In this document: in pieces, positions 3,297 to 31,766 of the stretch
Numbering within the stretch: the first letter of the stretch is position 1
Layout: every line of letters starts with the position of its first letter
Assembly (NCBI RefSeq): GCF_001428045.1
Contig: NZ_LMSD01000023.1
Span: 248,001 to 312,000 of the forward strand
Direction: 5' to 3'
DNA from: Paenibacillus sp. Soil750
GTDB taxonomy: Bacteria > Bacillota > Bacilli > Paenibacillales > NBRC-103111
Length of the DNA: 64,000 nt
Translations under genes and position numbers: made by a program
The notes under the pieces: model-generated
The model's database searches: none
What the model saw: the letters and a program-made list of their open reading frames with translations, nothing else
What the model was told of the DNA's origin: nothing

Positions 3297-3334
3297 TACC
3301 TTATATATTGAAATTAAAAGGGAGACCAGTACAT

Positions 3335-7434: not shown

Positions 7435-8532
7435 ATGGAGACAATACAGCTTCGAAATCGGTTAACGCAAGTCAAAAGTAAGCTGCAAACAGGGCAATTA
7501 ACGTTGGGTTTCATTGGTGGATCTATAACCGCAGATAGCAAAGTGATGGCGAATTGGCCGGAGCCAGTCGCGCGTTGGTTTGTTGAATCATTTCCTCACG
7601 CACGCATTACAGTGGAGAATGCAGCGATTGGTGCGACAGGCAGCGATTTGGCTGTTTTCCGTGCAGAACGGGACTTGATTAACCGTCAATGCGATCTGAT
7701 TTTCATTGAATTTGCCGTCAATGACTACAATACACCGTCTGAACAGCGGATGAGGGCGAGAGAAGGTTTGATTCGCAAACTTTTGGCAGATGGGCGTAGT
7801 GAGCTCGTTTTCGTCTATACCTACTGTCAGAAAATGTACGAGGACATGTCACGGGGGATGGTCCCTGCCAGCATCGCTGAATTCGAGGAGCTAGCCGAGC
7901 ATTACGGCATTAACACGGTTTGGGTCGGACTGCATGCCTGGCAGGAAGTGAAGAAAGGCCGAATGACCTGGGACGAATGGTTGCCGGATGGACTTCATCC
8001 TACGCATCGAGGCAGTCTGAGTTATGGACAGTGTGTAATCGACTATTTGGAAAAAGAATTGCTAACGTCTCCCGATGAGGAGAAAGCCGAAACCTATAAA
8101 CCGCTCGCAGCGCCGCTTAATAACAATCACTGGGGGCAAGTGAATACGCTTTCCTTCGACGAAGTTCAGTTGGAAGGACCATGGATGATTAGACGGGCAG
8201 CGGCTCATATGCCTTGGGTTGATCAGATTCTAAGCACATCAGCGATTGGTGCGAAGCTGTCCTTGTCGTTCACAGGCAAGGGATTGGCGTTAGCCTTCGA
8301 TTTTGGCAAAAAATCAGCGGAATTCATGTATAAGCTCGACGGAGGTCCTGCGATCACGAGTTGTCGGGATCGACCTAATTGGTGCGGAGATAGCGGCTGG
8401 TTTCGTATCTACTGGATCGCAGATGATCTGGAGGACGGACTGCATCATTTAGAGCTGGAGGTTGTTCACGGCAATAGAGAGGAATGCACGGGGACGAATT
8501 TTCATTTGGGACTTATCGGAATAGTTAAGTAA
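7435..8532 (+). CDS. SGNH/GDSL-family carbohydrate esterase (cytoplasmic)
   Basis: This 365-aa protein has the SGNH-hydrolase fold and probably removes acyl groups from sugars. I use ATG 7435, preceded by TGGAGA with a 10-base gap, since the upstream ATG at 7369 has no ribosome site. Block I is LGFIGGSITADS with Ser30 as likely nucleophile, block II is NAAIGATGSDL, block III is EFAVNDYN, and block V is LPDGLHPTH with Asp185 and His188. Residues from about 240 on form a separate beta-rich domain of unknown role, common in carbohydrate-linked members. There is no signal peptide, so it acts on imported oligosaccharides. The beta-mannosidase gene begins 9 bases downstream, which suggests deacylation ahead of glycosidic cleavage. 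Confidence 0.9.
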   Translation: METIQLRNRLTQVKSKLQTGQLTLGFIGGSITADSKVMANWPEPVARWFVESFPHARITVENAAIGATGSDLAVFRAERDLINRQCDLIFIEFAVNDYNTPSEQRMRAREGLIRKLLADGRSELVFVYTYCQKMYEDMSRGMVPASIAEFEELAEHYGINTVWVGLHAWQEVKKGRMTWDEWLPDGLHPTHRGSLSYGQCVIDYLEKELLTSPDEEKAETYKPLAAPLNNNHWGQVNTLSFDEVQLEGPWMIRRAAAHMPWVDQILSTSAIGAKLSLSFTGKGLALAFDFGKKSAEFMYKLDGGPAITSCRDRPNWCGDSGWFRIYWIADDLEDGLHHLELEVVHGNREECTGTNFHLGLIGIVK

Positions 8533-8541
8533 AGAGGTGCG

Positions 8542-11109
8542 ATGACGATGAAACTACTTCTTAATGAAGATTGGCAGCTAACGTGGGAGCCGCTCTATCG
8601 CCAGACGGCAGATTATATACAAGTTAAAAATAAACAGCAGGATTGGCTGCGGGCCGATTTGCCTTGCGATGTGCATATGCCGCTCATCGCGCAAGGGATC
8701 ATCGCAGAGCCGTTAGTAGCGGATCAGTGCTTTGCGAGTGAATGGACGGAGAACCGCTCTTGGTGGTTTAAGAAGACTTTTATGCTGACGGAAGAGCAGT
8801 TGCTTTCAGACCAAATGATCCTTCGATTTGAATCTTTGGATGTAGAAGCAGATATCTGGATGAATGATTGCCATCTGGGCCATCATCGCAGTGCCTTTTA
8901 TCCGTTTGTTTGTGATGTGAAAGGCAAGTTGCAGCAAGGGGTTAATCAACTCTTTGTACGTGTTACTTCGGGGTTGGAGCTCTATTCGGAGAATGATCTT
9001 GCGCTAATTAGTGAGGCCAAAGTGGTATATGAGAACGAGCAGATCGGGCACAGAGGCGATCATCGTCGAGGCATGCTGAGAAAACCGCAATATGTATTTG
9101 GTTGGGATTGGGGACCAAGGGTCGTGACGTGTGGGATCATGGGTGAGGTGAGTATTGAGTTTGCCCACAGTTTTCAAATTCGAGACATTCACGTAACCAC
9201 GACAAGCTTGGATGCTGCGAGTAAAACCGCACACTTACAGTTTCAATTGGAGCTTCTGAATCTGCACCCTTTTCAAACGTTAGAAACGGAGTTGAAACTG
9301 GCACTGCTTTTTAATGGCAAGGAAGTGCAGCTTATTCAAAAGGATTGTTGTCTTCGTTCCGGGCTGAACTACGTCACAATTCCGATGGAGGTGCTTGATA
9401 CTAAGCTTTGGTGGCCCAATGGGATGGGCGAGCAGCCGCTGTATGGGATTCGGGCAACGCTGCAGACGACAACGCATGCTGTAGAATATCCCTCCTTTTC
9501 ATATGGGATACGCACGTTGTACCTAAACATGGATAAAATCCTGGAGAGTCAGGATGAACGTTCGTTCACTTTTGAAATTAACGGTGTGTCTGTCTTCAGT
9601 AAAGGTGGAAACTGGATTCCTGCGGACGCCATTTATGCGCGGGTCACGGATGCCAAATATGAAACCCTGCTGAGCGAAGCAAAGGAAGCTAACTTCAATA
9701 TGCTGCGCGTGTGGGGAGGAGGTATCTACGAAAGAGACATTTTTTATGACAAATGTGACGAGTACGGGATTCTCATTTGGCACGATTTCATGTTCACCTG
9801 CGCGAAATATCCAGATCACTTGGCTTGGTTTCGGGACGAAGTAGAGCGGGAGATCGATTACCAAACTCGGCGGCTTCGCAATCACTGTTCGCTCGCACTT
9901 TGGTGCGGAAATAACGAGAATCATTGGGGCTTTGAAGAATGGTGGAATGAGACCTTAGCTGCCGATTTCTATGGGGGAGCGGTCTGTTACAATGACATCG
10001 CCCCACGCATTGTCCAGCGGAACTGCCCGGCTATTCCCTATTGGAATAGCTCGCCTTACGGCGGTGCCCATCCGAATGGCAACCAATCGGGCGACACGCA
10101 TCATTGGAATGATTGCATGATGCATGCCGACATGGAAAAGCGGATTACACCCGAGGAATATGACAAGGTGAGTGCTAAATTTGTCTCGGAGTATGGTTAC
10201 ATCGGTCCATGTCGGAAGACTTCCATGGATATGTACCACAATGGTCAGGAATTGGATCGTGAGAGCAAGCTTTGGCAGCTTCATACGAATATTTTCGAAA
10301 AAGATACGGTACTTGCCGGTATAAACAAGCATTATTTGACTACCGAACACTTGGGAATCGACGATTACTTGCTATACGCAGGCTTATGTCAGGGTGTCAT
10401 GCTGGGGTATTCACTTGAGGCGATTCGATCCAAGTTGTTTTGTTCCGGCGCGTTATTCTGGATGTACAATGACTGCTGGGGGGAGGTAGGCTGGTCGATC
10501 CTTGATTATTACCTAACGCGTAAAATTTCGTATTATTTTGTGAAACGAGCATTAGCACCGGTAAAACTCATTTTACGCGAGCAGGATGGGATGATTCAGC
10601 TCACGGCGATCAATGAAACTAGCTCGGCTATTCGTGAAGTCCTAGAATACGGCCTTGTTTACTATGATGGGAGCGAGAAGCAATCGACGGAGATAGAAGT
10701 TGAACTGCCGCCTTTCTCGCGGGAAGTCGTCTTGCAATGGGCAACACCTGCCTATCCTTCGAGAGAGGCGTGTATGTTTGTCAGAGCGTTAGGTGAATCC
10801 AGCGAAATATTGCCAGCCGTGATACAAAACGAAGTGGTTCGCGATCTCATTTTGCCTGACGCACGACTAAAAGTGTCAAACATTCATGTCATTGAACCAG
10901 GGCAAATTCGCTGTACGGTTACAAGTGAAGCTTTTGCGCATGCGGTGCATTTTGGATTGGATGAAACGATTCAGTTGAGTGACGAATATTTTGACTTGCT
11001 TCCAGGTGAGAAGCGGGAGATTACGATACGACACGGGGAAATTGCCCTCACAACAGACCAGATTGTACCACGATCAATTACACGAAATCATAGCGAAGGC
11101 GGCGTATGA
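8542..11109 (+). CDS. GH2 beta-mannosidase
   Basis: This 855-aa glycoside hydrolase family 2 enzyme most resembles beta-mannosidases, which release beta-linked mannose from oligosaccharide ends. The N-terminal jelly roll carries WWFKKTF and LDVEADIWMN. The catalytic barrel begins around FSKGGNWIPADAIY and contains MLRVWGGGIYE. The likely acid/base is Glu459 in WCGNNE, and the likely nucleophile is Glu550 in VSEYGYIG. A C-terminal Ig-like region includes SDEYFDLLPGEKREITI. There is no signal peptide, so it is cytoplasmic. It lies 9 bases after the esterase and 1 base before the epimerase, which indicates one operon. A second GH2 at 22228 is divergent in sequence and is probably not redundant. 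Confidence 0.94.
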   Translation: MTMKLLLNEDWQLTWEPLYRQTADYIQVKNKQQDWLRADLPCDVHMPLIAQGIIAEPLVADQCFASEWTENRSWWFKKTFMLTEEQLLSDQMILRFESLDVEADIWMNDCHLGHHRSAFYPFVCDVKGKLQQGVNQLFVRVTSGLELYSENDLALISEAKVVYENEQIGHRGDHRRGMLRKPQYVFGWDWGPRVVTCGIMGEVSIEFAHSFQIRDIHVTTTSLDAASKTAHLQFQLELLNLHPFQTLETELKLALLFNGKEVQLIQKDCCLRSGLNYVTIPMEVLDTKLWWPNGMGEQPLYGIRATLQTTTHAVEYPSFSYGIRTLYLNMDKILESQDERSFTFEINGVSVFSKGGNWIPADAIYARVTDAKYETLLSEAKEANFNMLRVWGGGIYERDIFYDKCDEYGILIWHDFMFTCAKYPDHLAWFRDEVEREIDYQTRRLRNHCSLALWCGNNENHWGFEEWWNETLAADFYGGAVCYNDIAPRIVQRNCPAIPYWNSSPYGGAHPNGNQSGDTHHWNDCMMHADMEKRITPEEYDKVSAKFVSEYGYIGPCRKTSMDMYHNGQELDRESKLWQLHTNIFEKDTVLAGINKHYLTTEHLGIDDYLLYAGLCQGVMLGYSLEAIRSKLFCSGALFWMYNDCWGEVGWSILDYYLTRKISYYFVKRALAPVKLILREQDGMIQLTAINETSSAIREVLEYGLVYYDGSEKQSTEIEVELPPFSREVVLQWATPAYPSREACMFVRALGESSEILPAVIQNEVVRDLILPDARLKVSNIHVIEPGQIRCTVTSEAFAHAVHFGLDETIQLSDEYFDLLPGEKREITIRHGEIALTTDQIVPRSITRNHSEGGV

Positions 11110-11110
11110 A

Positions 11111-11881
11111 ATGAAACAGAAATTTGCGGTACAACTGTATACCTTGCGTAACGAATGTGAGCAGGATTTTCCAGGGGTGCTAAGAGAACTGAAACAGATG
11201 GGCTGGGCAGGGGTTGAACTGGCAGGTCTACATAGTTACTCGGCTGAAGAGATTTCCGACGTGCTGCAACAAACAGAGTTACAAACGGCAGGTATGCATG
11301 TGTCTTTTCAGCGTTTGAGTAGTGAGCTGGAGAGCGTGCTTACGGAGGCGCGACTTTGTCGTACGACAACTTTAATCTGTCCTTCCGTCCCCCATGAGCT
11401 TCGAAATGAGGAGGGCTACCGGCAATTTCGCAACCAGTTAAATGAGATTGCGAAGAAAGTACAGGAGGATGGCTTCACACTAAGCTTTCACAACCATGCT
11501 TTCGAGTTTGAAACAAGTATAGATGGTAGGAATGCCCTGGAATATCTGATTGAACCCTCTGCGGATAATGCGATATTGGCAGAAATAGATGTATATTGGG
11601 TGAAAAAAGCGGGGAAAGATCCAGCTGCTTTCATTCGTCCATATAGCCGCCGGATGCCAACAATGCATGTAAAGGATATGACTGATGATGAGCAACAGAC
11701 ATATGCTGAAATTGGCACAGGCGTGATCGATTTCGATCCCATATTGATATGGGGAGAGCAGAATGGTGTGGAGTGGTACGTTGTGGAGCAGGATGTGTGT
11801 CAAGGTAATCCCATGGATTGCGTGAAGCTTAGCTTAAAGAACTTACACCGAATCGCGGATAGATTAGCTGAAATTACATAG
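11111..11881 (+). CDS. Sugar phosphate isomerase/epimerase (AP-endonuclease-2-like TIM barrel)
   Basis: This 256-aa protein belongs to the xylose-isomerase-like TIM-barrel family. I start it at ATG 11111, one base after the beta-mannosidase stop, where MKQKFAVQLYTLRNE gives the family's first strand; the longer open frame runs back into the upstream gene. Likely metal ligands lie in SFHNHAFEFE, EIDVYWVKKAG, MHVKDM and VVEQD. Members isomerise or epimerise free or phosphorylated ketoses and inositol derivatives. The substrate here is unknown, but its place behind a mannosidase suggests processing of the released sugar. A terminator follows directly. Confidence 0.88.
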   Translation: MKQKFAVQLYTLRNECEQDFPGVLRELKQMGWAGVELAGLHSYSAEEISDVLQQTELQTAGMHVSFQRLSSELESVLTEARLCRTTTLICPSVPHELRNEEGYRQFRNQLNEIAKKVQEDGFTLSFHNHAFEFETSIDGRNALEYLIEPSADNAILAEIDVYWVKKAGKDPAAFIRPYSRRMPTMHVKDMTDDEQQTYAEIGTGVIDFDPILIWGEQNGVEWYVVEQDVCQGNPMDCVKLSLKNLHRIADRLAEIT

Positions 11882-11953: not shown

Positions 11954-12742
11954 CTAAGACTTCCAAACCTGAACTTTCTCTTTCATATAAGTGGAGGGCA
12001 GAGTGCCCGTACATTTTTTAAACACTTTATTAAAATAGGACTGCTCGCAGAATCCGAGAAAATCGGAGATTTCTCCTACGTTCATCTGAGAGTTAGTCAA
12101 CAGGTCACAAGCGGCGGCAATACGGATTTGCTGAATGTAGTCCGTGACGGATTGTCCGGTAACCTGTTTGAAAATGGTACTGACATAGTTAGGGGTCCGA
12201 TCCGCATATTCGGCTAATTCGCTCAAAGTGATCGTTCGGTGATAATGGTTGAGTATGTAGGCTTGAAGCAGCATCACGATGCTATAGGATTTGCCCTGTG
12301 TGGATTGCGAATCAATTTCTTCGTTGATTACCGCGAGCATTTCAAGCAGAATGCCGTGGCAGATGGTGTCTGAATAGACGGATTTGCGCAGCCAATGTTG
12401 GGTCAACAATGAAAACCTTTGCTTCATATAGTCAAAGTTAAAAGGTCTGGTTAAGCAGCGATCAGGTGTTATTAGCAGCGGAAGTCCATCCCCGTCTCCT
12501 TGATAATGAAAGTGCGCGACGTACATATCATGCGGTTCCTTGGTTGAATTCATCGCGCTGCGCCAAACACCTTGAGGGACAAATAAAAGATCCCCCTTTT
12601 GCATTGTAAAGGTGTGATCTTCAACGGTATAGTGAATGGTTCCATTGGTCATGAGGATTAAAATATGGTTGTTCGTCTTACTCATAGGGACGTGCCAATT
12701 CGGCTCACAATGCTCGAAGTAGATAGCAACAGGTTGGATCAT
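11954..12742 (-). CDS. AraC-family transcriptional regulator with cupin sensor domain
   Basis: This 262-aa soluble regulator combines an N-terminal cupin-like sugar-binding half with a C-terminal AraC DNA-binding half. I start at the ATG ending at 12742, which has an AAAGGAG ribosome site; the longer frame adds an unlikely arginine-rich leader. The cupin part includes [20 protein letters not shown]. The helix-turn-helix part includes [20 protein letters not shown] and [19 protein letters not shown]. It is divergent from the isomerase operon at 12912 and probably controls it. The effector is unknown. Confidence 0.92.
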
Positions 12743-12911
12743 AACGTGCTCCTTTCGGTCGATACTCACACCTCTGTGAGGTCTAATACTCATTCTCATA
12801 GTATAACTGAAATCGTAGAATTGTTGAAATAATTATTGTATAGTTCATTGTTTCAATAGCCTGATTTTACTAAGCTTAAGATGAAAGATATGCGGGGAGG
12901 ATGAGGGAGAA

Positions 12912-14354
12912 ATGAGTAGTTTATTCCAAAAAGTTAAAGCGCGTGTAGGCGTGATGACGGTAGGTCACGAGCCATATTGGGTACAATTTCCGGGGTTAAA
13001 AGAGGAGCTGGAAGGCTACGGACGTGAATTCGAGGAAATGCTTCGTAAGCATGACGTCGAGGTGGTGTCGGCAGGCTTTGTCGATACCGTAGATAAGTCT
13101 TTTGCCGCTTCATCCTATTTGAAAAGTCAAGATGTTGATTTCTTATTTTGCTTCTTGAGCACGTATGTGACGTCGTCAACAGCTGCTACCCCGATTCTGA
13201 ACTTGTCTGTACCGACGGTACTTGTTGCGTTGCAGCCGAGGAAGCGTCTTGACTATAGAAATACGACGACGTATATGCAGTTAGCTAACGATAATATTTG
13301 TTCACTTCCAGAAATAGGCGGCGTGCTTGTGCGGGCAGGAAAGCCTGCGGCAGGGATGATCGTAGGAACGCTCTATGATGATCCACGCGCGATGACGGAG
13401 TTACAAGGATGGTGCCAAGTCGCCAATACGCGCAGAGCGTTCAAATATGCCAAAATCGGCTATATGGGGCATACCTATGAAGGTATGTATGATATGAACT
13501 CCGATCCAACAGCTTTTACGGCTGCTTTTGGTTCGCATGTGCAAATGCTCGAAATGTGTGATTTAGCCAAGCTGGTCAATGGTGTAACGGCTAAGGAAAC
13601 AGCTAATAAACTGGATGAAATTAAAAGCGTTTTCAAAATATCCGATCCTTTTATCGATCCGGTGACAAGACCGATCAAACAAGAGGATCTCGATTGGTCA
13701 GCTAAAGTTGCGGTTGGACTGGATAAGCTGATTGTGGAAAATGGGTTAACAGGTCTGGCCTATTATTACAGGGGACTCGACAATAATGAGTATGAACGGA
13801 TCGGATCGAACATGGTACTCGGTAACTCGCTGTTGACAGGCAAAGGGGTTCCGCTTGCTGGAGAAGCCGATTTGAAGACATGCGCAGCGATGCTAATCAT
13901 GGATCGTCTAGATGCTGGAGGTTCGTTCGCAGAGCTGCATCCTTGTGACTTTGTCGACGATATCGTGTTGGTCGGACATGACGGGCCGCATAATATTAAA
14001 ATTAGCGACGGGCAGCCGATCATTCGTGGATTGGATCTGTTTCATGGTAAAAGCGGTTCTGGCATCGGCGTTGAATTCAGCATCAAATCAGGCCCTGTTA
14101 CTTTGCTCAGTATTTCACAAACCGCTAATGGCAAATACAAAATGATCGCCACGGAAGGCGAATCCATCAAAGGTGAAATTCCACAGACTGGCAATACAAA
14201 TACACGTTGTAAATTTGATTATAGTGTTTCAGAATTCGTGGAAAAATGGTGCTCAGCAGGTCCTACGCATCACTTTGCGCTTGGTGTAGGGCATGTGGGT
14301 TCCAAGATTCGTAATGTAGCCAAAGTACTAGGCATTGAGGTGGAAGTGATATGA
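12912..14354 (+). CDS. L-arabinose/L-fucose isomerase-like protein
   Basis: This 480-aa protein belongs to the AraA/FucI-like aldose-ketose isomerase superfamily. Its likely metal and catalytic residues fall at the spacing of L-arabinose isomerase: Glu318 in AGEADLKT, Glu341 in SFAELHP, His356 in VGHDGPHN and His453 in GPTHHFALG. E. coli AraA uses E306, E333, H350 and H450. The overall similarity to true AraA looks low, so the sugar isomerised may differ. A strong GGGGAGG-rich ribosome site precedes ATG 12912. The stop codon overlaps the start of the next gene in ATGA, so the two are translationally coupled. An AraC regulator is divergent upstream. Confidence 0.85.
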   Translation: MSSLFQKVKARVGVMTVGHEPYWVQFPGLKEELEGYGREFEEMLRKHDVEVVSAGFVDTVDKSFAASSYLKSQDVDFLFCFLSTYVTSSTAATPILNLSVPTVLVALQPRKRLDYRNTTTYMQLANDNICSLPEIGGVLVRAGKPAAGMIVGTLYDDPRAMTELQGWCQVANTRRAFKYAKIGYMGHTYEGMYDMNSDPTAFTAAFGSHVQMLEMCDLAKLVNGVTAKETANKLDEIKSVFKISDPFIDPVTRPIKQEDLDWSAKVAVGLDKLIVENGLTGLAYYYRGLDNNEYERIGSNMVLGNSLLTGKGVPLAGEADLKTCAAMLIMDRLDAGGSFAELHPCDFVDDIVLVGHDGPHNIKISDGQPIIRGLDLFHGKSGSGIGVEFSIKSGPVTLLSISQTANGKYKMIATEGESIKGEIPQTGNTNTRCKFDYSVSEFVEKWCSAGPTHHFALGVGHVGSKIRNVAKVLGIEVEVI

Positions 14355-16834
14355 CAACACGCGTAAAACCAAAGAAGTCCTTGCAGAGAGTTACACTTGA
14401 AATGAGTCTAAAGCCATTCAAGAGTATGGCACCTGAGGCTATCGAAGCTGTATGTACCGAGGCTATAAGGCAATGGCTTCCACTAATCGGCATGGCAGAC
14501 AGCTGTTCGATCTTGCTGTGGGTCGCTGATGGGAGCGAGATCCTAGTTTGGGACGGCGATTTGCAGCGCGAGATTGAATGGGGCCGCTATATCGGATTTG
14601 CCAATGAGGAGTATTTCGGCCATATTAAGAACGACAAAGACCCGCGAATTGCCACGCCTTACATTAGTGAACCGGCACGAATCACCTATGGTGATTTGCA
14701 AGTTATTATTGCGTCTTTTAAAAGAATTGCAGCCGAGCGTTATGGCATTCGCATGGAGGTGGGGGCCACCTTTGACGCAGGACCTGAATTTGCCTACTCG
14801 GATTTCAAATATAAGCTGCACCCGGAAATCAATCGCGCCGAAGTTGGTGGGCAATTTATTTCACTGAAGGCGGACTATACCGTCGTATGTAGTTGGTCGA
14901 AGCTGAAAGAGGACCACGTAGCGTATGCGGCTTATCCTGATGGCATTCCCGAAAGCACAGCGTTTGGCGAGTTTCTGGGGCGGCAGTGTGCCAGCTTTTT
15001 ACCTACATTAGGCTTTGATTATATATGGTTTTCCAATGGATTCGCGCTGTCGTACTTTCCGTGGACATATTTAGGAGCTAATTATGATGGCACGCAGATT
15101 GCGATGGCGGAGTATGAAGAGCTATCGTCTAAGATGCTGTCATTCTGGGAAATTTTCAAGCAAGAGTGCCCGAATTACCGGACAGAAATCAGAGGGACGA
15201 ACTACGGAACAGGCATGGATCTTGCCAAGGACTGTATCCCCTTACTTGATCTATATGAGAGAAAATATGTGGAATATCCGCCGCCGAATTCGCCATGGGG
15301 AGCTCTTAACTATGACTTCGGCCTAGAACTTACAGGCTATATGTCGCGTATCGCAGTTTTGCCGGCAGAGACGTACCTCTTCCGGTTCTATGCCAATGAT
15401 CCTTGGTTCTGGCAAAATCCGTGGTGGGATCTCTATGATCGGGAGCCACATGACATTTATTGTCCACTCACCGTCGCTCGAGTTAATACGGAGGGCGAGC
15501 TGGAGAGTCCGGGTGTCGTAGAGATTTTGACCATCGATTCGGAAAAAGGCGAGATGGATGCAGATATCCCGTTGGAAGTTATCCCTCATATTAAAAAAGC
15601 ATTAAAAGACGCACCAGACCAGCCAGGGATCTTAACATGGTTGTACCCGTTTCGAGAGCTGCATGAAGCGATGGCGGAATCGGGCGAGCATTCGAGCGAC
15701 GTTTTCTTCCATGATTGGTTTGTGCGCAATGCAATTAACCAAGGCTTGCCGCTGAATACGGTGCTTAGTACCGATGACTTTTTCGCAATGCAGGACGAGG
15801 CAATCCATAAGTTGCAAGATACGATCTTGTTTACTTCGGCCTTTTGGATAAAAGGGGAGAAAGCACAGCGAATCGTCGAGTATGTTCGTAACGGAGGGAA
15901 GATCATTTTCTATGGTCGTGTCGAAGATCCGGATCTACTCAACCTGTTGAATCTCAGAAACGAGCCTGAACTGGAAGGTGCTTTTTCCGTTAAACTTACC
16001 TTGCCTGAAGATACGATCAAGAATGAGGAGCCTACTAGAGGAGATGGGAATCATAAATTGCACCATCATCCACACATTTCAGGCGGTGGGTTAGGTGAAG
16101 TTGTGGAAGATCTGGCTGATAGCTCTACTCAAATTCATGCAAGTGTGAGTCAGAGTGGGCTAGAACGTGCATTTACGATAACTAGAGCTTTACCTGAATG
16201 GGATGGAGGCAAAGTAGGGTGGGTACGCGGTTCGTTGCCCTTCCAATCTGCTGGTGTATCGCATTTGCCGATTCGTCAGGAAAAAGAATTTCTGGATTCC
16301 TCGCTCTTCGTACGGTATGTCCTGCAACAATTTGGTTACTCCTTGTATCAGGTGAAGGAAGAGGCAGCATCTGAATCAGCATTGATGTTCATCACAAGGA
16401 ATGACAATGCGTTTATCCTTACTGGTTGTAAGCAGGATACATCCGTTGGGCTGCAGCTTCAATTTCCCGATGGCGCTCCACTTATTATCGGGCAGTCCGT
16501 TATGATTGGAGAAGGAACGACTGCGACTTATACACTTGATCGAACGTTTCATGACGAATGCCGCGTGTTTGTTAAGCAAAAGCAAACATCTCGCATTACG
16601 TGTAAAGAAAAATCGCCTGATCCAACACCTCGGAAGCATAACCGTACGCTTCGTAATTTTAGTGTGAACAATCTGATTGAGGCCGATCTTACCATTTATC
16701 CGCCTCTTGCACAGCTGCAAGCAGGTGACGTTGAAGTGAGGAACGGTGAGCAATACTTGGAATTGTTTGGTAAAGTAGTAGGGAATTGTATACGATTAAC
16801 CCAAATTAGCGGGAACATTGATATTTCATGGTAG
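14351..16834 (+). CDS. Uncharacterised putative glycoside hydrolase (TIM barrel plus GATase-like domain)
   Basis: I do not recognise the family of this 827-aa cytoplasmic protein. Residues from about 10 to 430 look like a glycosidase TIM barrel: VTLEMSLKPFK at the start, MEVGATFDAGPEF, DYIWFSNGFALSYFPWTY and EIRGTNYGTGMD. Residues of about 440-540 contain HDWFVRNAINQGLPLNTVLS, then VEYVRNGGKIIFYGRV, which resembles the GATase-like trimerisation domain of GH42-type beta-galactosidases. A beta-rich C-terminus follows. Candidate acids are the Glu residues in RMEVGA and TEIRGT, but I cannot assign them. It overlaps the isomerase-like gene by 4 bases and precedes an SGNH esterase. Such tight coupling suggests it liberates the sugar that the isomerase-like enzyme converts. 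Confidence 0.8.
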   Translation: MTTRVKPKKSLQRVTLEMSLKPFKSMAPEAIEAVCTEAIRQWLPLIGMADSCSILLWVADGSEILVWDGDLQREIEWGRYIGFANEEYFGHIKNDKDPRIATPYISEPARITYGDLQVIIASFKRIAAERYGIRMEVGATFDAGPEFAYSDFKYKLHPEINRAEVGGQFISLKADYTVVCSWSKLKEDHVAYAAYPDGIPESTAFGEFLGRQCASFLPTLGFDYIWFSNGFALSYFPWTYLGANYDGTQIAMAEYEELSSKMLSFWEIFKQECPNYRTEIRGTNYGTGMDLAKDCIPLLDLYERKYVEYPPPNSPWGALNYDFGLELTGYMSRIAVLPAETYLFRFYANDPWFWQNPWWDLYDREPHDIYCPLTVARVNTEGELESPGVVEILTIDSEKGEMDADIPLEVIPHIKKALKDAPDQPGILTWLYPFRELHEAMAESGEHSSDVFFHDWFVRNAINQGLPLNTVLSTDDFFAMQDEAIHKLQDTILFTSAFWIKGEKAQRIVEYVRNGGKIIFYGRVEDPDLLNLLNLRNEPELEGAFSVKLTLPEDTIKNEEPTRGDGNHKLHHHPHISGGGLGEVVEDLADSSTQIHASVSQSGLERAFTITRALPEWDGGKVGWVRGSLPFQSAGVSHLPIRQEKEFLDSSLFVRYVLQQFGYSLYQVKEEAASESALMFITRNDNAFILTGCKQDTSVGLQLQFPDGAPLIIGQSVMIGEGTTATYTLDRTFHDECRVFVKQKQTSRITCKEKSPDPTPRKHNRTLRNFSVNNLIEADLTIYPPLAQLQAGDVEVRNGEQYLELFGKVVGNCIRLTQISGNIDISW

Positions 16835-16892
16835 GCGTCTAATCGTCTAGTTATTTGAAACCATCAGTTATATAAAAGGTTGGTGAAAACGG

Positions 16893-17990
16893 ATGAATGT
16901 ATCAAGGAAGAATGAGATAGAGAAGCTGGACAGTAGTATGAAAATGGATGTCGATACCAACAGCGACTGGGAATGGTACTCACCGCGCAATGAACCTTTT
17001 CGGATAACAGGATTGCCTTGGCTGGAACAAGACGGGGTATATCGAAGATTGCCACTTGAACCAAGCCATCCGATTCGATCAGAGGTAGATCGACTTGCGA
17101 ATTATACGGCTGGCGTGCAGATTCGTTTCCAGACAGATTCACCAAAACTTTCTGTAAGGGTCGTTTTGGTTGACAGGGCCACCATGTACCAAATGCCTGC
17201 CACTGGTCAATGTGGCGTTGATTGCTACGTCGGTGCAACTGGAGCTCAGCTTTATATAAATACCACTCGCTTTGATCAGTCAAAAAATGAATACGAATCC
17301 ATCCTTTTTGAATCCATACCGTGGGAAATGCGGGATATCACACTTAATCTTCCCCTATATCAAGGCGTGAAGGAGATTTGGATAGGTTTGGATCCATCTT
17401 CATCGGTAGCTGGATTTCCTGGCTTTGCCACCAACAAGAAAGTACTTATATACGGGACATCCATCACCCATGGCGCTTGCGCTTCGAGGCCTGGTATGGC
17501 CTATCCCAATATTTTAAGTCGGAAATTTCCAATTGAAATTGTGAATCTCGGTTTCTCTGGAAATGCACAAGGAGAGCCGGAGCTTGCCCATTTGATCAGT
17601 CAAATCGATGAACCGGCGTTGCTTGTTCTGGATTATGAAGCTAATACGCCTAGTACAGAACGGCTCCAGGAATCATTGCCTGAATTTATCCGGATTTATC
17701 GTTCACGCCATCCTGAAGTTCCAATTCTCGTCCTATCACAGATTCGACTAGCGAAGGAAGCTTTTGACGAAACCATGCTTCGCCGCCGGGAAGAACGCAA
17801 ACAGCTTCAAATGGCTATCGTTGAGCGATTGCAGCAAGAAGGGGATGCGAATCTCCACTTCTGTGACGGTGCAGAGTTGTTAGGGGCGGATTACCAGGAA
17901 TGTACCACAGATGGTATTCACCCTTCGGATTTAGGCTATTATCGGATAGCGGAAACACTTAGCCCTATTCTTGGGAAACTGATTGACTAA
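16893..17990 (+). CDS. SGNH/GDSL-family esterase with N-terminal beta domain
   Basis: This 365-aa protein has a beta-sandwich N-terminal half (about residues 20-175) and an SGNH hydrolase C-terminal half. Block I is VLIYGTSITHG with Ser190 as likely nucleophile, block II is NLGFSGNAQGE, and block V is TDGIHPSD with Asp340 and His343. The usual GxND block III is not conserved; VLDYEANTPS occupies its place. No signal peptide is visible. It is a probable deacylase of imported sugars and the last gene of the isomerase operon, 58 bases after the putative glycosidase. It is only distantly related to the other two SGNH proteins in the window. Confidence 0.85.
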   Translation: MNVSRKNEIEKLDSSMKMDVDTNSDWEWYSPRNEPFRITGLPWLEQDGVYRRLPLEPSHPIRSEVDRLANYTAGVQIRFQTDSPKLSVRVVLVDRATMYQMPATGQCGVDCYVGATGAQLYINTTRFDQSKNEYESILFESIPWEMRDITLNLPLYQGVKEIWIGLDPSSSVAGFPGFATNKKVLIYGTSITHGACASRPGMAYPNILSRKFPIEIVNLGFSGNAQGEPELAHLISQIDEPALLVLDYEANTPSTERLQESLPEFIRIYRSRHPEVPILVLSQIRLAKEAFDETMLRRREERKQLQMAIVERLQQEGDANLHFCDGAELLGADYQECTTDGIHPSDLGYYRIAETLSPILGKLID

Positions 17991-18104: not shown

Positions 18105-18223
18105 GGGCTTCATGCAATTACATTAAGATGACAACCTAAATGTAGGTGTATTGTCGTTGGATTGTGCGGTGGGACTGGTGCATGCCAGTCGATTTCACTT
18201 CGAATAAAGGGGAATATAAAGGC

Positions 18224-20575
18224 ATGAACATAAAAGCTTTTTTAGGAGCTAAAGCCTATTTTATAAAAATGGTTCTTTGGATTAGCGTAGCTATATTGAT
18301 TCTTGTTGTTGTTCTTTCAACGGTTATTTATATTAATTCGCAAAATCTTTTGGTCAAAAATGAATATGCAGCTAATCAGAAAATACTTTATCAGGTCAAG
18401 TATAATATGTCTTTTATGGATCAAACGATTTCCAATTTATCGAAATTTCTTTACTTGAACAGCGATGTAACCGCTATTATGTATGCGAAAAAGGAAGATA
18501 TGATTGAAGTGTCAAGCCACATGTCTAAAGTCGTTAGCTCTGTCACTTCAGCTATTCCTTATATTCACTCGATTGGCATTTATAATCGGAATTTGGATCA
18601 TTCCTATAGCACGGGTTTTCCTTTATTTTTTAAAGATCAGATGCTCTTCGACTTTATTAATTCGGATCAAGCGCTGCCTAAGTTGAAACCGATTTTCCGT
18701 GATATCAAAAAACTAGTAAATGGGGTAACCGAGTCTGAGTATGTATTCTCCTATTTCATATACGAAACGACAGTGAGTGGGGCTAAGCCGGATGGCGTTG
18801 TCGTTATTAATGTGAAGCCGGAGTGGTTGCTGGAGAATATTAATCAAATCAATATGATCGATAAACAAAAGGGAGATAACGTATTTATTCTGGATCAGGT
18901 TGGCGAGTACTTGGATGATGGTACCCATGATCCTACCATTAAAAGTTGGCTGAAAACGGATTTTTTGGCATATAAAACAACACATCCACAGGCCGATCGA
19001 GATGGTTTTTTTCAAAGCAAGCATGGCGGAACGAAATATTTAGTCACTTACACAAATGTCGACAACACGGGGATGACGCTGTTAAAAACGCAGCCTGTTC
19101 TTGAAATCTATACCTATATCAACAGCTTAAGAAATAGCATTATCATCATCACGCTCATTTTTCTTGTCATGGCAATTGTGATATCCATTGTTATTTCCCG
19201 GAAAATATATGGTCCAGTGGGGAAACTGGTGAATTCGATCATGCTGGATCGGATAAGGAGATCGGACAAAGACGAGGTCGTCGATGAGATCTCTTATTTG
19301 AACACCGTTTACAGACAATCTATGGAAATGCTCGATCATTACGATAAGGAAAAGATGCAATATAAAGACGTCATGAAGCATTATTGGTTAAGCAGACTGC
19401 TCACGGAAAGCTTATCGATCGGCAGGTCAGAATTGGAAAGCATTTTTAAAGAAATGAGGATTTCTTTAGTTTTGGATGGTTCCTATGCCATATGTTTATT
19501 AAAGATTGATAACTATAAGGAATTTCAACATGCGTTCCATCCCAAGGATAAAGATACGATTCGCTTTGCTATGATCAATATTGCATCAGAAATTATGGCT
19601 AGAAAGTACCCTAACGAAGGACTTGATATGAAGGATGATCATGTCGTATTGATTGTCAGTATGCCGGAAGAAGATGATCAGTTTCAATCACATATCCACT
19701 CGCTTATAAAAGAGGTTCAAGAGAATGTTTCCCGATTTTTTAAAATCTCCTTTACGGCATCGATTAGTGAAAAAACGAGTCAGATGCAGGAATTGAATGG
19801 CCTGTATCATAAGGCTCTCGATCAGGGGATGTATCGCTTATTACTAGGCCATTCCTCCGTCATTACCTACGAAACGGTTAAGAAAAATGTGGAAAGCAAA
19901 AAAACAGGATATTCCAAAAATCATGAGGAATGGCTTGTGGAAGCGATGAAATCGAGCAACACCGCAGTAATAGAAGAGGTTTTGGGGAATCTATTTGAAG
20001 AGCTGGGCACGCTAAACTATCACAATGCTCTAGTCTCCATCATTAGACTTGTGGATGTAGTTATTGAGACGCTAGAAGAAATGAAAGTGACAGCTGCGCC
20101 ATCTTTGCACATCTCATCAATCAGTCGCAATATCTTGGAGAAGGAGACGATTGCCGAGATTCATCGGATCATTGTAGGTGCCCTGCAAGATTCGTTCAAA
20201 AAAGATTTCGAGGGAAATACCAATAAACTAAATTACTTTTTGGTAGATGCGGTCACGGAATACATTCATAACCACTATCAAGACCCTTCCTTGAGCTTGA
20301 CTTCGATCGCTTCGATGATGAAAATATCGACAAGGAATTTAAGCAAGACATATAAGGAAGCTACCCATATCTCGATTCCTGATTTTATTAACGAGTTTAG
20401 ATTAGCCAAAGCGGCAGACCTTCTTATCCAAGATGACCTTAGTGTGTATGAAATTGCTGAAAAGGTCGGGATCTTGAATGAAACCTATTTTTTCAGCTTG
20501 TTCAAAAAGAAATATAAGGTCACTCCGAAGGAATATGCCTTACGGAGAAATATGACGAATTTGATTCAAAAGTAA
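18224..20575 (+). CDS. Membrane sensor / AraC-family transcriptional regulator
   Basis: This 783-aa protein is a paralogue of the regulator at 4755-7136. I start it at ATG 18224, because MNIKAFLGAKAYFIKMVLW aligns with that protein's N-terminus and the upstream extension has no ribosome site. Membrane segments near residues 15-37 and 300-325 enclose an extracytoplasmic sensor region. The C-terminal AraC domain has SLTSIASMMKISTRNLSKTY and LSVYEIAEKVGILNETYFF, ending in KVTPKEYAL. It is preceded by its own copy of the GGAAA-N15-TATACATTC element, which suggests autoregulation or membership of the regulon it controls. It converges with the ROK kinase gene across only 22 bases, with no terminator visible between them. 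Confidence 0.93.
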   Translation: MNIKAFLGAKAYFIKMVLWISVAILILVVVLSTVIYINSQNLLVKNEYAANQKILYQVKYNMSFMDQTISNLSKFLYLNSDVTAIMYAKKEDMIEVSSHMSKVVSSVTSAIPYIHSIGIYNRNLDHSYSTGFPLFFKDQMLFDFINSDQALPKLKPIFRDIKKLVNGVTESEYVFSYFIYETTVSGAKPDGVVVINVKPEWLLENINQINMIDKQKGDNVFILDQVGEYLDDGTHDPTIKSWLKTDFLAYKTTHPQADRDGFFQSKHGGTKYLVTYTNVDNTGMTLLKTQPVLEIYTYINSLRNSIIIITLIFLVMAIVISIVISRKIYGPVGKLVNSIMLDRIRRSDKDEVVDEISYLNTVYRQSMEMLDHYDKEKMQYKDVMKHYWLSRLLTESLSIGRSELESIFKEMRISLVLDGSYAICLLKIDNYKEFQHAFHPKDKDTIRFAMINIASEIMARKYPNEGLDMKDDHVVLIVSMPEEDDQFQSHIHSLIKEVQENVSRFFKISFTASISEKTSQMQELNGLYHKALDQGMYRLLLGHSSVITYETVKKNVESKKTGYSKNHEEWLVEAMKSSNTAVIEEVLGNLFEELGTLNYHNALVSIIRLVDVVIETLEEMKVTAAPSLHISSISRNILEKETIAEIHRIIVGALQDSFKKDFEGNTNKLNYFLVDAVTEYIHNHYQDPSLSLTSIASMMKISTRNLSKTYKEATHISIPDFINEFRLAKAADLLIQDDLSVYEIAEKVGILNETYFFSLFKKKYKVTPKEYALRRNMTNLIQK

Positions 20576-20597: not shown

Positions 20598-21566
20598 TCA
20601 CATCACCTGATATTCCGCAACGGACAGACTAGCGTAATCGCCTACAAGTTCTCCTAACCCGGCAGGGACAACGCGGCATACACGATGAGCGTGAGGGAGT
20701 GCCTCCCTTTGAAGTTCCTCAAGTGCGAAAGCTTCAAGCAGGTCCCGCTGTCTGGCATACATGCTGCCAATTACGATTAACTCGGGGTTAAGAAGGTCTA
20801 CCAGGACAGATAGCCCTCTTCCAAGCTGTACCCCCACAGTACGAAATACTTGTAACGCTAAAAGATCCCCTGATTGCGCGGCCTCCGCGATCTGCTGAGC
20901 TGTCATCGCGTCCAATTGCGACTCGGACTGGCAAAAGCTTGGAGGCTGCCCAATTGCCGAAGCTTCCGCGGCTTTCATTCGTCCCAATTGAACAATGCCG
21001 CCTCCGCTGCAGAAGCCTTCGAAGGAACCGGCTTTGCCATAACCGATGGGTCCTGTAGGCTCAAGCCTCATATGACCGATCTCACCGGCCATATCATTGG
21101 TCCCCGTATATAACTTGCCATCTAGAATAAGACCAGCGCCCATACCTGTACCGAAGGTCAGGAATATCATATTCCGGGTTCCAACGCCAGCACCCCAGCG
21201 CCATTCTGCCAACGCACAGGCATTGGCATCATTCTGCAAGCCAACGGGAACACCAAAGTGTTCCTTGATTAACGAAGTAATGGGGATGTGATCCCAGCCA
21301 GGCAAATTCGGTGGTGAAAGGATGACCCCTGTTTTGCTGTCCAGCGGCCCCCCGCAGCTGATGCCAATCGCTGCGAGTGAACCACCTTGTTCCAGTAATA
21401 ATTGCTCTAAGACTGAAATAAGCTTCGTGATGGTCTGATACGGATCTTTGGGAGTGGAAAATTGAACTTTGCCAAGTAGCGTGATCTCATTATGATCCAT
21501 CCGTCGACCGACAGTAACGGCACACTTGGTTCCTCCAATATCAAAGCCAGCAAGGATCGTCATCAT
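20598..21566 (-). CDS. ROK-family sugar kinase
   Basis: This 322-aa protein has the ROK fold without an N-terminal helix-turn-helix, so it is a kinase and not a repressor. I start it at the ATG ending at 21566, which has AAAGGGAG upstream and overlaps the stop codon of the SIS gene; the longer frame reads through that gene. Phosphate-binding residues are in FDIGGTKCAVTVG, the catalytic base is Asp113 in LQNDANACALAEW, and GTGMGAGLILDG and EIGH follow. The zinc-binding CxCGxxGC motif is replaced by a GSFEGFCSGGG sequence. It probably phosphorylates a hexose or N-acetylhexosamine; the sugar is not evident. It ends a three-gene operon with a SIS isomerase and a GH2. Confidence 0.9.
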   Translation of the reverse strand: MMTILAGFDIGGTKCAVTVGRRMDHNEITLLGKVQFSTPKDPYQTITKLISVLEQLLLEQGGSLAAIGISCGGPLDSKTGVILSPPNLPGWDHIPITSLIKEHFGVPVGLQNDANACALAEWRWGAGVGTRNMIFLTFGTGMGAGLILDGKLYTGTNDMAGEIGHMRLEPTGPIGYGKAGSFEGFCSGGGIVQLGRMKAAEASAIGQPPSFCQSESQLDAMTAQQIAEAAQSGDLLALQVFRTVGVQLGRGLSVLVDLLNPELIVIGSMYARQRDLLEAFALEELQREALPHAHRVCRVVPAGLGELVGDYASLSVAEYQVM

Positions 21567-22213
21567 CCGAAAAACTCCCTTTCCAACATCGTACATAGGA
21601 TGTGATAAATCGGCAGGTGCCGCTCCTGGATATCCGGTGTTCGCTCCCAAGGCACCCTAATGGTCACGTCGCATAACTCCTTCAATCGGCCACCTTGTTT
21701 TCCGGTTAATCCGATGGTACTCATTCCTATCGCTCTCGCGGTTTGAACAGCCCGAATGACATTCGCTGAATTCCCGGAAGTGGAGAGAGCTAGGAGGACA
21801 TCTCCCTTTTTCCCATAACCATACACTTGTTGGGCAAAAATCATTTCCGGTTCTACATCATTAGCATACGCAGTTATCAAGGCAGCGTGATTGGTAAGTG
21901 AAATGGCGGGGAGCGCCTGCTGCAGATGATCTGCTAAATAGTCCCCTTCTTTTTCATCCCATATTTGGATTAAAGAACCACGGAAGGATAAGGGGACAGG
22001 CCTTTTGGATAGAAAGCCTTTCATCAGTTCGCCGGCAATATGATCACAATCAGAGGCGCTTCCCCCATTGCCGCATAGCAGCATTTTACCAGATAAATGG
22101 AAAGCGTCTGCGCATAATTGGAAGGCTGCAATAATGTCAGATGTACAACCTTCCAAGTCTGGGTATCGCTCTACGAGTTGTTGCATATCGTTTTCGAGTA
22201 TCCATTTCTCCAT
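21563..22213 (-). CDS. SIS-domain sugar phosphate isomerase (GmhA-like)
   Basis: This 216-aa protein has the SIS fold that binds phosphosugars. The phosphate loop LLCGNGGSASDCDHIAGEL (about residues 45-63) resembles sedoheptulose-7-phosphate isomerase GmhA and DiaA. A second serine-rich loop is ALSTSGNSANVIRA. A strong AAGGAGGG site precedes the ATG ending at 22213. The GH2 gene ends 14 bases upstream, and the stop overlaps the start of the ROK kinase in a coupled junction. The context suggests isomerisation of the phosphosugar produced by the kinase; a role in heptose synthesis is unlikely. Confidence 0.88.
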   Translation of the reverse strand: MEKWILENDMQQLVERYPDLEGCTSDIIAAFQLCADAFHLSGKMLLCGNGGSASDCDHIAGELMKGFLSKRPVPLSFRGSLIQIWDEKEGDYLADHLQQALPAISLTNHAALITAYANDVEPEMIFAQQVYGYGKKGDVLLALSTSGNSANVIRAVQTARAIGMSTIGLTGKQGGRLKELCDVTIRVPWERTPDIQERHLPIYHILCTMLEREFFG

Positions 22214-22227
22214 CGTAAAAACCCTCC

Positions 22228-24561
22228 TTATCGACCGATCTCGTCGGCTCGGAAATCGTTAGAAATAGAGGCAATTTGCGGCAACCAGCCTTTATAGGTT
22301 TCCAAGGAAAACGCCGGGAAGCCAAGCAGATAGTGATTGCCATAGGTTCGTCCATTGAGACTCCATTCCAGTAGAAACAATTGCTGCTTGGCGTGAGAAA
22401 TAGGGATTTTTCCTAGCTCAGAAGTCCCGTTCGCCTCCACCTCGAACCTACCTTCCATAAGCGTTTCTTTGGAATCGGCATCCCAAATGCGATATGAACC
22501 AGCAGCTGATTCTCGGGAGTCATTGCCTACGGCTACTCGCACATGCCAATTCTCAGGCTCATCGATCATAATGCAGACGGGGACTTGGCTTCTTTGGATG
22601 TAATGAAAAGCCAATTTCTTACCATAGTAATAATCAACGACTGCATCTGAGAATTGCGGCCAACCGTCAATCATATTCCACCAGATGATGCCTGTTTTCC
22701 GCCATTTTTTGAGCCGAGCGGTCTCGATAAAAAACTTTTTGGCCTCAGCTTGGGAAATTTGCGAAGCAAGTATGAAATCCTCCAAAGCGTCAGGAATGGC
22801 TCCGAACAATTCCTTAATTTGATTCGCCATCAATTGGATACGCGTCGCGTTATGACCTTGTGAGCCGCTAACATCCGTTGCGTGGGCGATCCATTGCTCA
22901 TCCTTATTGTTAAATGGCCATAGATGCGCAGGTTCAATGAACTTCTGGATTGACGATACATTCGGACAGCCATGATAGCCAATTTCACTGATAAAATGGT
23001 CCGTACTCGTCTTATAAAAGGAGCTTTTATAATAATCGCGCGGCCCCCAAAGATGTCGTTCAGGAGCTAAGTTCATGTTCCCTGATCGGATAACCTCAGG
23101 AGACAAGTAGGGAGAGCTTGGCAAATAAGCCCGGTGAGGATCATATTGCTGGATAATTTGCGGAAGCAGTGTGCGGGTGATCTGATTCACACCAGGATCA
23201 GGCAATCCATACCACTGATAAGCTTCGTCACATTCGTTATCCCCGCACCATAGAACAAGCGAAGCGTGATTTCGTAATTTTTTGACAACGGAGCGAGCTT
23301 CAAGTCGCATGGACTCACGGAATTCGGGCGTTTGTGGATAGACAGCGCAAGCCATTGCAAAGTCTTGCCAGACCATCAACCCATGACTGTCGCAATAGTC
23401 AAAAAAGGCATGGTCCTCATAGACGTTTCCTCCCCAGCAGCGGACGATGTTGCAGCCTGTTTCAATAAATAGCTGAAGAGCCTTCTCGTAGCGACTGGCG
23501 TCTCGGCTATGGAACGCATCCATCGGAACCCAATTGGAGCCTTTGCACATGATTGAGGTGTGATTGACTTTAAATAGAAATTCGCCGCCAGCTTCCATAG
23601 TGGTTGTTTCTGTGCGAATTAAATGGACGTGACGCACGCCGATTCGCTCCGTACGTGAAGCGAGTACACGTCCCTGATGGAGTAATTCGGTCTTAACTTC
23701 ATAGATATGGGCTTCCCCATACCCATTTGGCCACCAGAGCAGTGGATTCTTGAGGGATATGGTTAAGGAGCCTACATTGAATAACACGGGCTTGCAGATC
23801 TGAAACTCCGATGCCCCCGATTTGCCTGTTACCCGAATCTCCAATCCATGATAAAAATACGCAGGATCCGTTTCCACTCTGTAAAACAGTCCGATTTCTG
23901 CAGCCGAAAGATTGGCATCGACAGATAAGGTATAGAAATATAGGTCGCTCAGCGCATGTTCCTCACTTGCGACCAACGATACGGATCGCCAGATGCCTGC
24001 AGAAACCGCGCGGGGCATAATATCCCATCCGAAGCTATGAGCCGCTTTTCGTACGAATAACTGCTCGCCATTCGTAAGTGGCCCGTAACAAATGGCGTCA
24101 GTGCTGCGATGCCCGGCTTCAATAATGGGGGAACGCAACCGTACATAAAGCTTGTTTACACCATGGCAGAGCAGTGAATTCGTTGTCTCGAGTCTTACCT
24201 CGATAAACATATTGTCGCTGGAGCCAAGCTCCTCCCCATTCAGCCAATAGGTTGCGAAGCAGTCTACCCCTTGGAACACCAATTCTGTTAGTTTGCCTTC
24301 CATCTCGGGTGGAGCGGTGAACTCCAGACTGTACCACCATTCATAAAGCTCGTAAGGACGGAGTTCATTGATATTCGTTCCGAGGAAGGGCTCAGGAAGA
24401 AGGCCGCTGCTTACCAAGTCGAGCTCCACATTCCCTGGAACAGAAGCATTAATAGAAGGCAAACCTAATTTGCTCAATTCATCTGGATGGTGGATATGCC
24501 ATACTCCTTGCGGATAATAAACAAGCTTCCATTGTCCGTCCAGGCACAGTTCATTTGTCAT
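22228..24561 (-). CDS. GH2-family beta-mannosidase-like glycosidase
   Basis: This 777-aa cytoplasmic enzyme has the GH2 domain order. The N-terminal jelly roll includes WWYSLEF and GVDCFATYWLNGEE. The catalytic barrel includes SNWVPMDAFHSRDASRYEK and NIVRCWGGNVYEDH. Likely acid/base Glu443 is in LWCGDNECDE, and likely nucleophile Glu526 is in ISEIGYHG. The W-C-G-x-N-E motif favours the beta-mannosidase branch over beta-galactosidases. It lacks a signal peptide. It is the first gene of an operon with the SIS isomerase and ROK kinase, so the released sugar is probably phosphorylated and isomerised. The divergent neighbour is the FAD oxidoreductase operon. Confidence 0.92.
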   Translation of the reverse strand: MTNELCLDGQWKLVYYPQGVWHIHHPDELSKLGLPSINASVPGNVELDLVSSGLLPEPFLGTNINELRPYELYEWWYSLEFTAPPEMEGKLTELVFQGVDCFATYWLNGEELGSSDNMFIEVRLETTNSLLCHGVNKLYVRLRSPIIEAGHRSTDAICYGPLTNGEQLFVRKAAHSFGWDIMPRAVSAGIWRSVSLVASEEHALSDLYFYTLSVDANLSAAEIGLFYRVETDPAYFYHGLEIRVTGKSGASEFQICKPVLFNVGSLTISLKNPLLWWPNGYGEAHIYEVKTELLHQGRVLASRTERIGVRHVHLIRTETTTMEAGGEFLFKVNHTSIMCKGSNWVPMDAFHSRDASRYEKALQLFIETGCNIVRCWGGNVYEDHAFFDYCDSHGLMVWQDFAMACAVYPQTPEFRESMRLEARSVVKKLRNHASLVLWCGDNECDEAYQWYGLPDPGVNQITRTLLPQIIQQYDPHRAYLPSSPYLSPEVIRSGNMNLAPERHLWGPRDYYKSSFYKTSTDHFISEIGYHGCPNVSSIQKFIEPAHLWPFNNKDEQWIAHATDVSGSQGHNATRIQLMANQIKELFGAIPDALEDFILASQISQAEAKKFFIETARLKKWRKTGIIWWNMIDGWPQFSDAVVDYYYGKKLAFHYIQRSQVPVCIMIDEPENWHVRVAVGNDSRESAAGSYRIWDADSKETLMEGRFEVEANGTSELGKIPISHAKQQLFLLEWSLNGRTYGNHYLLGFPAFSLETYKGWLPQIASISNDFRADEIGR

Positions 24562-26048: not shown

Positions 26049-26100
26049 GCGATCTGACGGCGGGTAAATATGATTTTACAATTGAAGGAGTTGCGTGCCC

Positions 26101-31732: not shown

Positions 31733-31766
31733 AAAAAGCTAATTCATTAGGAAAGGGAGTTTATTG

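Follow-up and report, generated by a model that had tools for sequence, protein, structure and literature searches.

A window of 64,000 nucleotides from Paenibacillus sp. Soil750 (contig NZ_LMSD01000023.1, positions 248,001 to 312,000; "the window" means this whole stretch of DNA) encodes a protein of 827 amino acids (aa) which, judged from sequence comparison, represents a family undescribed in Pfam, NCBIfam and the PDB sequences (CAZy was not among the libraries compared) and combines a predicted architecture of the glycoside hydrolase family 42 (GH42) type with the absence of the acid/base glutamic acid on barrel strand β4. The gene for this protein (827 gene) overlaps that of an AraA-like isomerase, and the link between the two is strong, as the 827 gene is tied to clade I of these isomerases far beyond mere adjacency. 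The type of system is familiar, namely an oligosaccharide-utilisation operon, and its one truly odd feature is the fixed loss of the catalytic β4 glutamic acid. Gene order, overlap, fold, missing motif, co-occurrence and the exchange of partners in actinobacteria were all computed. The two genes and their junction are:

12912-14354, + strand: AraA-like aldose isomerase of clade I, 480 aa (Pfam matches, alignment to AraA)
14351-16834, + strand: unclassified glycosidase-like protein, 827 aa (TIM barrel ~6-480, GATase-like domain ~487-560, β-rich part to 827)
14351-14354, + strand: ATGA stop/start overlap of the isomerase gene and the 827 gene (read in the sequence)

The overlap had already been reported in an initial annotation made from the sequence of this DNA, and it is found again elsewhere: isomerase and 827 gene are adjacent in 19 loci including the window, with the same four-base overlap in eight and a reversed order in three of them. 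Because the adjacency recurs in this way, eight times with an identical overlap, the arrangement is not due to chance.

Against Pfam the 827-aa protein gave nothing above the cut-off, its sole trace being GLMA_2nd (E 0.015, 15.5 bits against 27.7, 38 residues), and neither NCBIfam (at E 0.1) nor the PDB sequences (at E 1) yielded a match. Using a pattern-based scan of genome contigs we collected 41 loci with relatives of 37–92% identity from Paenibacillus, Cohnella, Bacillota/Clostridia metagenome-assembled genomes, Microbacteriaceae and one Corynebacterium-like contig. From these and the window 34 of 42 rows were kept in the family alignment, with L005, L006, L007 and L019 dropped as near copies, L011, L030 and L037 left out with their broken 827 genes and L042 with its garbled tail. 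The 34 members gave no credible Pfam match (best E-value 0.013), the GLMA_2nd trace appearing at E ≤ 1 in ten of them and staying below its cut-off, and their profile found nothing credible in the PDB (best E 0.46, lambda Cro). The GH42 model PF02449 was absent from the Pfam matches of the window protein and of the 34 members, and hhalign of the family against 16 GH42 relatives (only 16 of 30 GH42 loci yielded an open reading frame (ORF) of the length kept) gave no barrel match, just a match of 2.6% probability in the GATase-like part. The view of the initial annotation that the protein stands outside every characterised family holds for the libraries searched, and the profile search it had named as a possible refutation led to no credible placement.

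A full-length 827 gene (at least 836 bits) is present in 26 of the 392 genomes of the window's order, two further genomes holding a distant relative only (G104) or a fragment only (G048), and in four of 394 genomes from the class to which one actinobacterial member belongs, the centre genome counted; in both surveys the best two first-look candidates per genome were scored. Two more distant relatives were found. The one from Nonomuraea (L053:7884-9122) is a barrel-only protein of 413 aa with 27% identity over 208 columns, which keeps the motifs GPEF and DPWxW and is preceded by a gene resembling, by eye, that of a solute-binding protein. The other (L099:8007-10193, 728 aa) lies beside a GH5-CBM protein and transporter-like genes, has Gln for E146 and Asn for D396 and may have a different function or be inactive. 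A plasmid collection yielded one distant relative (Nonomuraea), and in a phage collection none was found. Apparent traces of decay were also seen: the genome of L002 contains a 34-residue stretch (G000:C9:69710-69811) that shares 65% identity with residues 7-40 of the 827-aa protein and is probably what is left of a second copy there, and in three genomes (L011, L030, L037) the 827 gene is broken by stops or frame shifts, with an isomerase that is shortened in L011, stop-containing in the genome of L037 and apparently whole in L030, as if the pair decays together. Among the openly accessible papers listed in literature searches, none seemed, judged by its title and the opening of its abstract, to deal with the gene pair.

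The AlphaFold2 model of the 827-aa protein (predicted local distance difference test (pLDDT) 86.3, predicted template modelling score (pTM) 0.90) bears out the TIM barrel and the GATase-like part that had been read from the sequence, and the suggested comparison with GH42 and clan GH-A enzymes points to an architecture shared by GH42, GH164 and the GH35 SGT. Foldseek against the PDB placed GH42 first for the whole model (E 2.1e-14), followed by GH164, the 'Glycoside hydrolase A' 5gsl and GH167. VIA-align gave Z 12.6 to both the β-1,2-glucosyltransferase IaSGT 7vkw (root-mean-square deviation (rmsd) 5.5 over 548 residues) and 5gsl (rmsd 6.1 over 536 residues), up to 12.0 to GH42, 11.9 to GH164, and 11.3 and 11.2 to the exo-β-D-glucosaminidases 6jow and 8oug. 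We take 5gsl to be an exo-β-D-glucosaminidase as well, and 7vkw to be the SGT of the published GH35 study. The alignments (Z 11–12.6) run over residues ~6-739 and through the barrel, the GATase-like domain (the trimerisation domain of GH42) and the C-terminal β domain, with ~88 residues of the protein extending past this span, and the eight strands of a (β/α)8 barrel lie at 11-19, 49-57, 135-141, 224-228, 277-281, 343-349, 389-394 and 428-432 (DSSP on the predicted models). The domain order is that of the GH42 β-galactosidases (PDB 5e9a, 4oif), the likeness to the GH35 SGT and the glucosaminidases consists in the top Z scores and the GLMA_2nd trace below its cut-off, and the GH164 β-mannosidase Bs164 also has three domains in a GH42-like arrangement, as the accessible part of its description states (PMC7105311). 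Sequence identity to the GH35 SGT is however just 9%, and no PDB-sequence match links the protein to Bs164. The barrel modelled alone (pLDDT 80.8) matches glycosidase barrels of several clans (VIA-align Z 11–14) and was discarded as a guide to one family, with Cwp19, exo-mannosidases, GH5_18, GH20 and GH66 all at Z 14.2–12.7. According to the models, the 827-aa protein has a glycosidase-type barrel in a GH42-like architecture and no single nearest family.

In the accessible parts of the respective reports, the acid/base and the nucleophile of Bs164 (PMC7105311) and Op5Man5 (PMC8233224) are Glu residues on β4 and β7, namely Glu-160 and Glu-297 on strands 4 and 7 of Bs164; Asn155 stands directly before Glu156 in Op5Man5, and the GH35 SGT uses Glu176/Glu343 (PMC11739564). 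In contrast to GH42, Bs164 and the GH35 SGT, the 827-aa protein has no Glu on β4: the acid/base position 230 is Gly in 38 of the 38 rows with a letter there (39-row alignment), within a segment FSNGFA (WFSNG in the window), and both distant relatives have Gln at this position. Within columns 224-265 none is acidic in more than 84% of the rows, and D223, located ahead of β4, is acidic in 97%. All 16 GH42 control rows carry Glu in the β4-type motif (printed row WHISNEYG) and share four invariant Glu, two of which, in HISNEYG and FMLMEQ, are the catalytic pair as judged by motif. With Gly in every family row that covers the position and Gln in both of the remoter proteins, the change at β4 is old and fixed. 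The tip of β7 carries Asp396, invariant in 39 of 39 rows, instead of the Glu nucleophile of clan GH-A, and Asp396 could act as nucleophile or base. E398 had been considered as nucleophile, since 'TEKG' resembles E-x-G, and was ruled out as some deep members have Ser or Ala.

The initial annotation had named a barrel lacking a carboxylate pair as a refutation of its proposal, and this applies to one half: β4 and β7 lack their Glu pair, but invariant carboxylates, at least seven including E17, D60, D142, E146, E279, D350 and Asp396 (38–39 rows), are found near strand ends, and more elsewhere within residues 1-480. These invariant barrel carboxylates favour catalysis over a dead barrel. Because the β4 Glu is lost and Asp396 stands at the β7 tip, another proton donor would be needed, for which E146 (β3), E279 (β5) and D350 (β6) are candidates, or an undemanding leaving group that requires none.

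In Pfam the isomerase passes the cut-offs of Arabinose_Iso_C, Fucose_iso_C and AraA_central, and its residues E318, E341, H356 and H454 align with E306, E333, H350 and H450 of AraA (2ajt, 4f2d), which we take to be the metal/catalytic residues of the E. coli enzyme. None of the four varies across the 18 rows of the isomerase alignment (window counted; L006 and L007 of 20 rows left out). With the central and C-terminal domains and the conserved Glu-Glu-His-His it belongs to the AraA/FucI superfamily, but it scores just 60.7 bits against the AraA equivalog PRK02929.1 of NCBIfam (cut-off 622), so that the earlier description of a divergent protein keeping the four AraA positions is accurate. Its second NCBIfam match, the sulfoquinovose isomerase SftI, is limited to 51.6 bits (cut-off 700). 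The possibility that it is the AraA of the host itself was rejected, as the host carries a separate AraA that scores far better (199 bits to Arabinose_Iso_C) and with which blastp gave no alignment at E 1e-3. Isomerases of this type form two clades in the order, clade I with at least 608 bits and clade II with 487–521 bits to the isomerase alignment. The genome of the window also has a clade II copy (G000:C2:150649-152112, L136) of 500 aa and 40% identity with permease-like genes close by, and the 17 kb around it contain no relative of the 827-aa protein.

Clade I isomerase and full-length 827 gene occur in an identical set of 26 of the 392 order genomes from 10 genera, and in the window's own genus there are 11 carriers of the pair and 19 non-carriers. 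The chance of such a co-occurrence is formally about 10 to the minus 40 if kinship is ignored. As a control, clade II isomerases were found in 35 of the 392 genomes (best four candidates per genome scored) and the 827 gene in just seven of those 35, and seven further genomes with partial or lower isomerase matches only have no full 827 gene. In some carriers the two genes are apart, by ~4 kb in G051 and G353, 8 kb in G036 and 16 kb in G312 and G367, and they are on separate contigs in G010.

In actinobacteria the partner is different. The seven actinobacterial genomes with an 827 gene yielded no clade I isomerase, G802 having a 464-bit relative; three of the seven (G469, G586, G594) belong to the same class as G394, from which L041 comes. 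Near the 827 gene the actinobacterial loci encode an MR/MLE enzyme (8/9), an Amidohydro_2 protein (7/9) and a Zn-dehydrogenase (5/9), and at the bit thresholds used none of these has a relative in the other 40 loci; for the dehydrogenase this holds for the actinobacterial one only, since relatives of another Zn-dehydrogenase (window 3308-4387) do occur in L004-L007. One MR/MLE enzyme was compared with NCBIfam and came closest to L-rhamnonate dehydratase (205 bits, cut-off 393). Of three amidohydrolases compared, two came closest to L-fucono-lactonase (67 and 40 bits, cut-off 400), and one had only a 19-bit match, to another lactonase. Together the three proteins could form an oxidative aldose route. 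In a tree of 39 rows (L053 and L099 left out) seven of the eight actinobacterial members with an oxidative partner fall into one clade, and L111 stands apart on a long branch; its placement is unsure and gives no proof that the oxidative partner arose twice. The 16.6 kb locus of the distant relative from Nonomuraea contains none of the three partners. Our best argument for a free aldose as the product of the 827-aa protein is that it is found with two modules for aldose entry which are unrelated to each other.

The three ORFs on the + strand and the AraC gene on the − strand are arranged as in the initial annotation, and the gene downstream encodes an SGNH esterase, as stated there. The surrounding genes, with the occurrence of relatives in a matrix of 49 loci of unequal length (L042 4 kb; 22.5 kb of the window used; bit thresholds chosen per query), are:

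7369-8532, + strand: second GDSL esterase, 387 aa (profile match; relative in 9/49 loci)
8542-11109, + strand: GH2 enzyme, β-mannosidase-like (Glyco_hydro_2_N2 and Ig_mannosidase; relative in 6/49 loci)
10979-11881, + strand: AP_endonuc_2 protein, xylose-isomerase-like barrel, weakly IolE-like (relative in 14/49 loci)
11954-12799, − strand: divergent AraC-family regulator, 281 aa (cupin and HTH_18 matches; relative in 13/49 loci)
16893-17990, + strand: SGNH esterase with N-terminal GxDLY domain, 365 aa (GxDLY and Lipase_GDSL_3; relative in 19/49 loci)
18146-20575, + strand: AraC regulator (dCache_1 match below the Pfam cut-off; relative in 16/49 loci)

The SGNH esterase is a GxDLY-type hydrolase with PF14607 and PF14606 at 111.3 and 158.4 bits (cut-off 27). 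The second GDSL esterase, GH2 and AP_endonuc_2 genes are located upstream on the + strand, beyond the divergent AraC gene, and the start listed for the AP_endonuc_2 gene is probably too early, most relatives having 254–266 aa. Over the 49 loci the neighbourhood of the 827 gene, which also includes GH2, AP_endonuc_2, Gfo/Idh/MocA and second GDSL genes, varies with the lineage; in L131 and L132 the GH2 relative adjoins the isomerase, with the 827 gene ~10-16 kb off. Scans for promoters (10 sites, 11.1 expected, standard deviation (sd) 3.8) and terminator-like sites (12, 5.0 expected, sd 2.1, one directly after the AraC gene) were not used as evidence.

Further away, the window contains a second sugar gene set (20598-26147) with another GH2 enzyme (22228-24561, − strand), FAD_oxidored (24798-26048) and a ROK-like kinase ORF and a SIS-type ORF, both named by eye from the sequence and not by profile. 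A 2088-aa protein (31764-38030) is an unusual mosaic with Sialidase-like_CBM, WbsX, Cu_amine_oxidN1, CBM_4_9 and Big_2 matches, and a 686-aa protein without Pfam match at E 0.001 (60459-62519) is preceded by a CBM_4_9 protein and a protein with a Hepar_II_III_C match below the cut-off.

We consider it fairly probable that the operon is a cytoplasmic oligosaccharide-catabolic unit, in which the esterases would strip acyl groups from the oligosaccharide, the 827-aa protein would hydrolyse the terminal glycosidic bond of an imported glycoside in an exo manner and thereby free an aldose, and the AraA-like isomerase would convert this aldose into a ketose for central metabolism. By eye, neither the 827-aa protein nor the isomerase begins with a signal peptide, and both are presumably cytoplasmic. 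The new sugar pathway postulated in the initial annotation is partly supported, through the unclassified enzyme family and the strong isomerase link, and the putative order of deacylation, hydrolysis and isomerisation is plausible; the neighbourhood is wider and lineage-dependent. More tentatively, we propose that the 827-aa protein founds a glycoside-cleaving family with a GH42-type body that has lost the GH-A acid/base and that would use another proton donor, an inverting mechanism or an undemanding leaving group, passing a rare aldose to an AraA-like isomerase in Bacillota or to dehydrogenase, lactonase and dehydratase in Actinomycetota.

Several observations speak against the reading as an oligosaccharide-catabolic unit. 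Likeness of fold by itself proves no function, the TM-scores to known enzymes are low (0.40 maximum among the top Foldseek rows), the first Foldseek row for the barrel alone is the ene-reductase OPR3 (E 7.8e-6), ahead of GH66 and branching-enzyme barrels, and the invariant loop 351-362 after β6 is poorly modelled in both the full-length and the barrel-alone prediction. For the actinobacterial partners, the profile scores behind the substrate names are far below the curated cut-offs. Outside the 392-genome survey there are also two exceptions to the gene pair: G801 (L032) has an 827 relative and gave no isomerase match at E 1e-25, while in G805 only a fragment of the isomerase lies next to a broken 827 gene. 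The copy of G801 clusters with L026, L028 and the long-branched L111 in the tree.

Among the alternatives, it is unlikely that the 827-aa protein uses the same fold for other chemistry as a phosphorylase, transglycosylase or lyase. The β-1,2-glucosyltransferase 7vkw as top VIA-align match and the galacto-N-biose phosphorylase 2zus at Z 9.5 would fit such an enzyme, and with the canonical acid/base missing standard retaining hydrolysis is unavailable; but no sugar-phosphate enzyme is among the recurrent neighbours named by profile, and free aldoses would be the substrates of the partners, whether isomerase or dehydrogenase/lactonase/dehydratase-like. We regard as quite improbable a 3-keto-glycoside route, in which a Gfo/Idh/MocA protein would oxidise the glycoside, the AP_endonuc_2 protein would carry out the elimination and the 827-aa protein would act on the oxidised substrate. 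Such a substrate would explain why no β4 acid is needed, relatives of the two proteins are present in 12/49 and 14/49 loci, flanking the 827 gene in Cohnella and some Paenibacillus, and other GFO_IDH_MocA proteins occur in the actinobacterial loci L038, L043 and L110. Weak matches of the Paenibacillus MocA to the glycoside 3-dehydrogenase models BT_2158/BT_2159 (27.5 and 27.8 bits) also point this way, but they are far below the cut-offs of 750 and 650, and its strongest match is inositol 2-dehydrogenase (104 bits, cut-off 355). Moreover, most of the 49 loci, including the 22 kb of the window, have no relative of the two MocA queries, whereas clade I isomerase accompanies the 827 gene in 26 of 26 order genomes. 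A remote but ordinary retaining glycosidase of clan GH-A, in which neighbouring carboxylates took over after mere sequence drift, would agree with the GH42-type architecture and with WFSNG for WHISNEYG at β4 and Asp for Glu at β7 as descent with replacement, yet it is hardly to be expected given the missing hhalign barrel match to the 16 GH42 relatives and the old, fixed change at the acid/base position.

If the proposal of a glycoside-cleaving 827 family is true, the glycosidases would gain a family whose active site is non-standard, and the isomerases a member of new specificity. The change of partner between lineages would then also offer a direct route to the sugar, as one aldose should suit both an AraA-type isomerase and, in its oxidised form, a rhamnonate-dehydratase-like enzyme. 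With both routes expected to share this aldose, it should be possible to search for the substrate with a small panel of aldoses.

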